Shown one piece after another: positions 51,201-62,535 of a stretch of 64,000 nucleotides of DNA (position 1 is the stretch's first letter; every line of letters starts with the position of its first letter). Below the pieces are notes generated by a model. The model was not told the origin of the DNA. It saw nothing but the letters and a program-made list of their open reading frames with translations, and ran no database searches. Source of the stretch: Sipunculus nudus (Eukaryota > Annelida > Sipuncula > Golfingiida > Sipunculidae); NCBI GenBank assembly GCA_026874595.1, contig CM049316.1, positions 28,503,339 through 28,567,338 on the forward strand, given 5' to 3'. The position numbers were made by a program, and so were the translations under genes.

Positions 51201-54200
51201 CCGCTTCCGCCTTTTATTGCCCCCCTCTCTTTTAGTTTTAGTTTTTATTTTCCCCTGAAGATGTCTCTACATATCATAATGCTTGGTTTTAGTTTTCATT
51301 GTCACCTGAAGATGTCTCCACATGCCATACTTTTTGTTGTTTATTGAGACCATAAGGTAAAAAAATGCTTTGTTTTGGAGATGGTTATAATAAATTTTGA
51401 TACAGACACTACTAAACCAATCCAAACCAAGGTATGCATGAGAGCAATCAGTGACCCAAAATTGATTTAAACGGATAATATTTAAGAAAGATGTCGCACG
51501 GAAACGAAAACCTGACGGACGGACGGACAGACAGAGGGACAGACAGACAGACAAACCCAAATCAATGTCCTCCGTTCCGCGGAAGCGGGGGACAACCATA
51601 AATGTCAGCTCACCTGCCATGATGCCGTTTGTTACGATGAGGACGTAAATATTCGTTGCGAATCCCGAGATGAAATATCCGAACGCTGTCAGTAACGCCC
51701 CTGCCATGACGACACTACGGAAGTCAAACCGGTACGTGAGCAAGGCGGTGAACGGACCTGAAATACATACACACACGAACAGCACTATCAATGGTGGTGG
51801 TTCGTCTCAATATCTTGACAATATATTTAGGGTCCATATTTCAAGTGACAAACTATCCATGGAAACTAATTACCACAGGACGTAATGTCCATGAACTAAT
51901 TACCACAGGACGCAATGCCTATGAACTAAATACCACAGAACGTTATCTCCATGAACTAATTACCACAGGACGTTATGTTCACGGAAATAATGACACAGGG
52001 TATAATATTCACAAAAAAATACACGATATAATATCTACGGACTACGAAACTACTGCCTCAGGACACAAGTTTAAGGTGAAAAAATATATATAAGGAATAT
52101 AATGTTCATGTATAAAATGAAACAGGACAATGTCCATTATCAAACAGTAACACTAACAGGACATAATGTAATTTGACGAAATACAGCTGGATATAATTAA
52201 GATTTAAAAACGTCATAACACATAATTTCACAGAGAATAATGTCCTTTGATAATACAACATGACATAATATACTTTGATATAATAAAACAGGATATAATT
52301 TGATTGGGAAAAAATCATAGGACAAATTTTCAAGGGTAAATTGTTACAAAATAAAATGTCTATTGGGAAAATGCCAGAGGTCATCAAGTCCTTGAAAAAA
52401 TACCACATCACATAAGGTCCATTGACAAAATACAGCAGATTATAATTTGAATTAAATTATGCCATCGGACAATACTGTAGGTAAAACGATACAGGGCATA
52501 ATGTCCAATGTCCTGAAACAAACCACAGCAGAATATGTATAGTTGATAAGGTGTGAAGACAAAATGTCTCTCAAGCAAAAAGGCAAGTTCAGTTGTCAAA
52601 AGGGAAAACGTTTATTGAAAGCTATGAAGCAGATGTGGCCTTTAACTTTGTACGATATTTCTCGACTTGAAACTCATGTCATACATATCATTTATTGTAA
52701 AATGATTGTTATTATTTCCAAACTTGAGTATTTTGACCGTACGTGGGCTAGCTTTTTATATGCTAGGGTTTCAGATTAGTGGTATTTGCACATAGACATT
52801 AACGCAAAAAATAAACCGCTGTAATTACCTTGTCTACACGATTGACTACATGTTTATCTAACGTGTGATTTTCATAAATCCTTGTCCGGCCATGAGCAAG
52901 CTGTTCAAAGAATAAGGGCCAGTCAAAGAATTCATGAATCATTTTCGTCGTTAAGAACACCTTTACGGTCATACAAGCAACAACATGTACATGTTAATGA
53001 AAATGATATTATATATTTTTCATACTTTTAATAAATCTAATATCGGCCTAGGAATGCATTAATTACTGACCAATCATGAGTTCATTGAAATAATTAAAAT
53101 GGAACCTTAGGTTTTTATAAGCAATAACCATGCATCCTTGGATTTATACGAAGTGTATGTTTATATATCTTTAGTTTGAGGTGAATATAGATCGGCATTT
53201 ATTTATTGACATTGTCGTGAATGGCAGTACATCGTATTACATGAAACCTTTTACAGTGTGACATTACACAAAATTGGGTCAATAAGGAGCAGAGAACGTA
53301 TTTTTGCAATTGACAGTGTTGTCAAGTTATATTGTTATGTATTTTTTAATTATACATTATAATATTACTCATTATTATTATTATTATTATTTTTTATTAT
53401 TATTATTATAATTGTAATTATTACAACTATTATTATACCATGTTTAATGTGCGTTCTGGCTCTGCTGAGTAAATCAGTGCCTATTTAGTTCGTACTCTCA
53501 ATGATACAGGTTTAAATATAGAATAGTATGATAATTTCACACAGAGTTACGAGTCGGATATGCAAAAACAAGTTCAACAATAACCCCTTATAAAAAAAAT
53601 TATGTTAGTTTAAATAAGCCTTTTGTTTATAGCCTGATATATATATATATATATGTATGGATGTGTGTATATCCCCGAGTTTAAATTCTTTGTATGTATA
53701 AATATATGGTGTTAATGACCTCCCGATAATTTATTTTTTTTTTATATTTTGAATGTAAATATTTATTTATATTTCTGTAAAATTAAATGTAAAACTTTAA
53801 ATTGTTTAAGCATGTCATCCCTGACTTAACGTGATAACTTTACAACGGATATATCCTATAAAACAATAAGATGGGTTTACGCTCGCCACTTGATTTCACT
53901 AATCAGGAAATTAGATCCCGGTCATTACAGGTGACATTTCTAGGTTCTTTTAAGGACGTGTATAAAAATACCAGACAATCATACACCCAGATCAATAGAA
54001 ACTATGAGACATCAGGTTAAATTCACAAATATAATTCAAGACAATACATACAGAGACATAGATGTGAGTGTGTGTGCGTTGATGTGTCAATACGACAGTC
54101 ATTCACATTAAAAATACAGGATATTTACCGAGTCCATGGTTTGTATAAAAACAATAAAGTCCAGTTCCTTCAGAGATCTCTGGTTACTGTTTTGTGTAGA

Positions 54201-62535: not shown

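Follow-up and report, generated by a model that had tools for sequence, protein, structure and literature searches.

The window, a stretch of 64,000 nucleotides of the Sipunculus nudus genome, contains on its minus strand, from 61442 to 53813, an LTR retrotransposon of 7630 bp whose integrase is encoded ahead of the reverse transcriptase (RT). We are fairly confident that this copy is an older, inactivated member of a Gmr1-type Ty3/gypsy family that has been recently active in the genome, and that the family includes a common RT-deleted form, presumably copied by RT supplied in trans. The integrase-first order is known in invertebrates and is rarely reported there. The RT-less derivative with its common junction is the new part of the findings.

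Organization of the element in the window

Pfam analysis and a motif script report, for the window copy, the order gag (SCAN)-CCHC-protease-integrase-RT-RNase H-LTR (Table 1). The earlier note had placed the integrase upstream of RT and an LTR right after RNase H, which the Pfam domains, the motifs and the LTR pair all bear out. As expected of an LTR retrotransposon, there are two LTRs with TG..CA ends, a target-site duplication (TSD), a candidate primer-binding site (PBS) and a polypurine tract. The LTRs start with TGTCAC and finish with TGACA, and their alignment over 1139 sites shows 27 differences, of which 20 are transitions and 7 are transversions (K2P 0.0242). The first 16 nt of the candidate PBS are identical in 14 of 20 other copies of the family and carry a substitution in four; for L040 and L049, the LTR edge used in this comparison is not the real junction. 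ARAGORN found no tRNA within the window.

Table 1. Features of the integrase-first element, in window coordinates
Feature	Position	Strand	Pfam match
Target-site duplication TGCTT, 5' side	61443..61447	-	
5' LTR, 1139 bp, TG...CA	60304..61442	-	
Primer-binding-site candidate TGGCGAGCGTGCCAGGATA, 5 nt past the 5' LTR	60280..60298	-	
gag, ATG at 59586; SCAN/capsid C-terminal part 59160-58732	58732..59586	-	SCAN
823-codon frame: CCHC, DSG, H2C2 and DD35E integrase, GPY/F, start of RT	56370..58841	-	
RT core with YVDD at 55992, then the beginning of RNase H; different frame	55408..56376	-	RVT_1, 2.4e-32
Remaining RNase H, in yet another frame, stop-terminated	55185..55469	-	RT_RNaseH, 1.7e-11
Polypurine tract CTTTAAAAGGAGGGGGTGA, adjoining the 3' LTR	54965..54983	-	
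3' LTR, 1152 bp	53813..54964	-	
Target-site duplication TGCTT, 3' side	53808..53812	-	

The gag piece scores 31.7 bits with the Pfam SCAN model, whose curated cut-off is 27, so that the SCAN-like gag proposed in the earlier note holds; its match in the PDB is a weak one, with the PEG3 SCAN domain (E 0.15). Within the 823-codon frame, a CCHC zinc knuckle is found at 58712, and the script located a DSG protease motif at 58385. Since the Pfam models listed for the window element, up to E 1, include no protease, the putative protease is called from this motif and its position. Pfam identifies the integrase (~57854-57260) through Integrase_H2C2 (8.5e-21) and rve (3e-11), and its DD35E codons stand at 57581, 57401 and 57293, with exactly 35 residues from the second D to the E. 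A GPY motif is present at 56870, and Pfam reports an SH3-like C-terminus for the integrase. The best relatives in the PDB are the RT (5.2e-57) and the integrase (3.3e-26) of yeast Ty3. Together with the series of Pfam domains, these Ty3-like enzymes assign the protein-coding part to a gypsy element ordered protease-integrase-RT-RNase H. The element has the features of Ty3/gypsy (Metaviridae), namely a gypsy-type RT with RNase H, and an integrase combining H2C2, DD35E and GPY/F. Ty1/copia elements also encode their integrase ahead of RT, but the window element differs from them by its gypsy-type RT and GPY/F integrase. Membership in Ty1/copia is rejected, as the RT matches RVT_1 and yeast Ty3 and the integrase carries GPY/F. 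None of the Pfam models listed for the window element, again up to E 1, is of the copia RT type (RVT_2).

The coding region of the window copy is damaged by one stop and three frame changes. The stop is an in-frame TAG at codon 17 of gag (59538-59536), and the frame changes occur near 58740 (gag/zinc knuckle), near 56376 (RT) and near 55410-55470 (RNase H). Gag and pol form a single frame through RNase H in 8 of 20 other copies, and the frame changes of the window copy are therefore read as copy-specific damage and not as programmed frameshifts. The 823-codon frame singled out in the earlier note does have the contents ascribed to it, from CCHC through DSG, DD35E and GPY/F into RT, but it is only a piece of a frame of ~1480 codons in other copies. 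The LTRs of the window copy share 85-91% identity over full-length matches with those of the other copies (L039-L058), as against 96.4% between its internal part and that of L046. By this comparison, the window copy seems to be a member of an older subfamily, and LTR and coding region may have separate histories.

By eye, three minus-strand frames of the window (48716-49555, 51267-51791 and 62290-62580) resemble what are presumably exons of a monocarboxylate transporter. The retrotransposon lies between these transporter-like exons, on the same strand, and perhaps in an intron. Another open frame (25000-25578, minus strand) resembles, again by eye, the final part of a reverse transcriptase of the non-LTR (LINE) type.

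Other copies in the genome

The assembly comprises 1.43 Gb in 153 contigs, 17 large scaffolds accounting for at least 1.39 Gb. A genome search with the gag piece gave 2731 candidate places. The 150 matches listed, the window itself aside, are 94-96% identical to the query; among these 150, 20 lie in frames of at least 1460 codons and 46 in frames of 958-998 codons. Twenty copies from 12 scaffolds were fetched as a hand-picked, non-random sample, chosen partly for long frames. In all 20, the integrase lies ahead of what remains of RT and RNase H (L043 has no RT match left). None has it after RNase H, the arrangement that the earlier note had named as refuting its reading. A single gag-pol frame of 1466-1484 codons is found in eight of them. 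The K2P distance between paired LTRs ranges from 0 to 0.0125 across the 20 copies, versus 0.0242 in the window, and 14 copies are flanked by an exact 5-bp TSD. The family is therefore young and abundant in this genome, and the window holds one broken member of it.

Three copies without an exact TSD (L045, L048 and L054) are followed downstream by the apparent start of a further internal region, and a fourth (L046) has a further LTR piece ahead of it; these extra flanking pieces resemble tandem arrays. Gag matches are also evenly spaced, at ~5.6 kb or 10 kb, in C9:20215691-20227322, C7:13636206-13667775 and C14:21401167-21431345. Such even spacing suggests that the element, or some larger unit, is repeated in tandem.

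In the same assembly, nine COX1 frames of 577-578 codons occur on eight contigs (C60, C61, C62, C66, C72, C74, C75 and C89). We take these genes as bacterial, which suggests that related bacteria, perhaps symbionts, were present in the sample.

An RT-deleted derivative

Six of the 20 fetched copies (L040, L042, L045, L052, L054 and L056) share one junction, at which ~887 nt are missing; the gap opens just past the C-terminus of the integrase and closes near residue 195 in the RT frame. The joint consists of the 7-bp repeat ACAGAGC directly followed by TGA, and the RT catalytic core is absent from all six. In L045, L052 and L056, gag, protease and integrase form an open frame of 978-989 codons, which is interrupted in the other three. 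The LTR pairs of the deletion copies differ by K2P 0.0009-0.0062, and four of the six have their own exact TSD. In the non-random sample, 13 further copies are without this deletion and L043 has a different one; the other RT deletions, in L043 and L049, were each seen once among the 20 copies. An exact 24-base pattern across the junction has 169 matches in the genome and an exact 22-base pattern of the undeleted site has 124, with none for the reversed-pattern controls; the ratio of 169 to 124 is a rough one, because the two patterns differ in stringency, overlook diverged copies and match repeatedly within tandem arrays, where the matches are not separate insertions. As an example of such an array, five evenly spaced matches lie near C7:13.62-13.67 Mb.

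In three piecewise trees (gag-protease, integrase and RNase H), the deletion copies are scattered among the full copies, and the comparison of the six deletion copies with the 13 others over three stretches yielded no diagnostic site. With neither a clade nor a diagnostic site in these stretches, descent of the deletion form from one founder is unsupported. The same two results can be explained by packaged RNAs recombining with one another, or else by slips recurring at the ACAGAGC repeat. The dN/dS ratios of the deletion copies are 0.81 for gag (n=6), 1.38 for the nucleocapsid-protease part (NC-PR, n=4) and 0.57 for integrase (n=4), versus 0.21, 0.52 and 0.38 in the full copies (n=11), figures that say little about selection on the proteins of the deletion copies, given the tiny divergence and a dN/dS of 0.11 for their out-of-frame RNase H piece.

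The family would follow the cycle usual for LTR elements. The LTR would drive transcription, a tRNA would prime at the candidate PBS, the SCAN-fold capsid would build particles and the DSG protease would cut the polyprotein. Reverse transcription would then be followed by integration, through an integrase encoded between protease and RT. In this scheme, the deletion form would be reverse-transcribed by RT supplied in trans from full-length copies, and it may mix with these through template switching. As integrase precedes RT, the product of a copy with one frameshifting deletion in RT is still a clean polyprotein of gag, protease and integrase; a gypsy element of canonical order could not retain one. 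We tentatively propose, as a reading that has a real though limited chance of being right, that the RT-less element has become a mobile parasite, present in about as many copies as the full-length form; it would encode capsid, protease and integrase itself and borrow RT only.

A rather unlikely alternative is that the RT-deleted copies have no mobile lineage of their own and result from recurrent slips between the 7-bp ACAGAGC repeats during reverse transcription of full-length RNA. Such slips would account for the microhomology at the junction, and for the scattering of the deletion copies in the three trees with no diagnostic site, although recombination between packaged RNAs would scatter them too. 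They agree less well with 169 identical junctions, whereas the RT deletions of L043 and L049 are single.

We know of no earlier pair of full-length and RT-less forms for a Gmr1-type element. A narrow literature search did not find a comparable LTR element deleted for RT and keeping its integrase. The mouse IAP I-delta-1 is an LTR element with an internal deletion that is abundant and mobile; it belongs to another element family and carries another deletion than the RT-deleted form described here. In plants, the LTR families RLC_Giselle and RLG_Sabrina are described as non-autonomous and thought to be mobilised by partners (PMC5738225). Like the RT-deleted form, they are coding-deficient partners of an autonomous family with a common PBS; RLC_Giselle is without RT and integrase and others have at most gag (PMC5738225), whereas the RT-deleted form retains gag, protease and integrase.

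Relationship to Gmr1 elements

Judging from domain order and the SCAN-type gag, the window family is likely a member of Gmr1. The founding paper on this group is reportedly that of Goodwin and Poulter in 2002. Gmr1 is defined, in the relevant passages of three papers, by an integrase upstream of RT (PMC8220671, PMC6238403, PMC3587641), and the SCAN domain is described as derived from a Gmr1-like gag (PMC4592553, PMC3424704). Both marks, the integrase upstream of RT (in the window and in all 20 copies) and a SCAN-related capsid domain, are present together, and the family is filed as probable Gmr1 on these grounds. The Gmr1 elements of cod, Ciona, frogs and pufferfishes share the integrase-upstream order with the window family. 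Frog Gmr elements share its SCAN gag as well, SCAN being reported in over half of them only (PMC4131045). In the pufferfish Gmr families, gag and pol form one product of 1506-1634 aa (PMC11117352, Table 2); such a one-frame gag-pol occurs in 8 of the 20 other copies and is absent from the window copy. The LTRs of the pufferfish elements measure 337-518 bp, versus ~1.14 kb in the window family (PMC11117352). The window family differs from these known Gmr1 elements by its common RT-deleted partner and its invertebrate host.

The integrase-first order is less surprising than the earlier note had rated it, since protostome Gmr1 elements are on record in crustaceans (PMC3587641) and in the annelid Lamellibrachia luymesi (PMC8220671). 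The crustacean elements, described in 2013 and assigned by an RT/RH tree, are GyRex4, Gychoro2, GyMaja1 and GyLiva4; the sequences of GyRex4 and GyRex5 are given as partial (PMC3587641). In L. luymesi, LGF3 was grouped in 2021 with Gmr1 by RH, RT and INT trees, and fewer than 25 elements are stated for the CsRn1 and Gmr1 families (PMC8220671). The clade of the Lamellibrachia Gmr1 element is given as missing from the own analysis of a polychaete survey (PMC8556966). For molluscs, a study of nine genomes, together with 47 other species, has 21 gypsy clades in its Table 1, Gmr1 not among them (PMC6238403), and our literature search on Gmr1 and Gmr1-like elements showed no mollusc Gmr1 element among the papers listed.

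A genome search with SCAN gave 2198 candidates, and the 150 matches listed score 43-57 bits, above the score of the window gag itself. The only one of these candidates that was read, L059 (C15:25701150-25706150), is old and broken, and presents in order SCAN (52.7 bits), a zinc knuckle, a DTG protease motif, integrase, RT and RNase H, with an apparent LTR, identified by eye, after a purine tract. Tblastn matches it with the window pieces for integrase (5.6e-63) and RT (3.6e-60), its integrase piece being below the Pfam rve cut-off. L059 is thus a second, older SCAN element with the integrase-first order. Another gypsy family of the same genome, retrieved via its integrase (L006-L008), has RT-RNase H and then integrase, and in four more places with RT and integrase matches together, picked out by eye in a non-exhaustive comparison, RT comes first.

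Quartets of the window, L059, L007 and Ty3, a set that includes no named Gmr1 reference, were built for RT and for integrase, and maximum likelihood paired the window with L059 in both. Distance site bootstraps of these quartets gave, out of 2000, 920/847/233 for RT and 1285/507/208 for integrase. The kinship with Gmr1 put forward in the earlier note is upheld by order and SCAN gag; the RT bootstrap is split, and the lophotrochozoan branch that the note raised stays a conjecture. Searches with the window RT and integrase, the L059 RT, L007 and a gypsy RT motif pattern reported no relatives in IMG/VR, and none were found in GTDB genomes.

It is improbable, in our estimate, that the order arose by convergence in a separate gypsy lineage outside Gmr1. 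The window RT is as near to yeast Ty3 (42.2% identity) as to L059 (40.4%), which together with the split RT bootstrap would suit convergence, but the window integrase is nearer to L059 (38.4%) than to L007 (31.0%) or Ty3 (23.7%), and window and L059 share the SCAN gag, the order, and a purine tract then an apparent LTR after RNase H. That the assembly, or the nesting of two elements, created the order is rejected with near certainty; we found no supporting point for it, and the same order is present in 20 of 20 copies on 12 scaffolds, with an unbroken frame through all domains in eight.

Significance of the family

Membership in Gmr1 being likely, this young, high-copy family extends the sparse record of Gmr1-type elements in invertebrates. 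In an invertebrate, the integrase-first order is here accompanied by a gag of the SCAN type, from which the SCAN domain of vertebrates derives. The RT-less partner is a natural experiment on the proteins that an LTR element has to provide in cis, and on the influence of domain order on the parasites it can give rise to.
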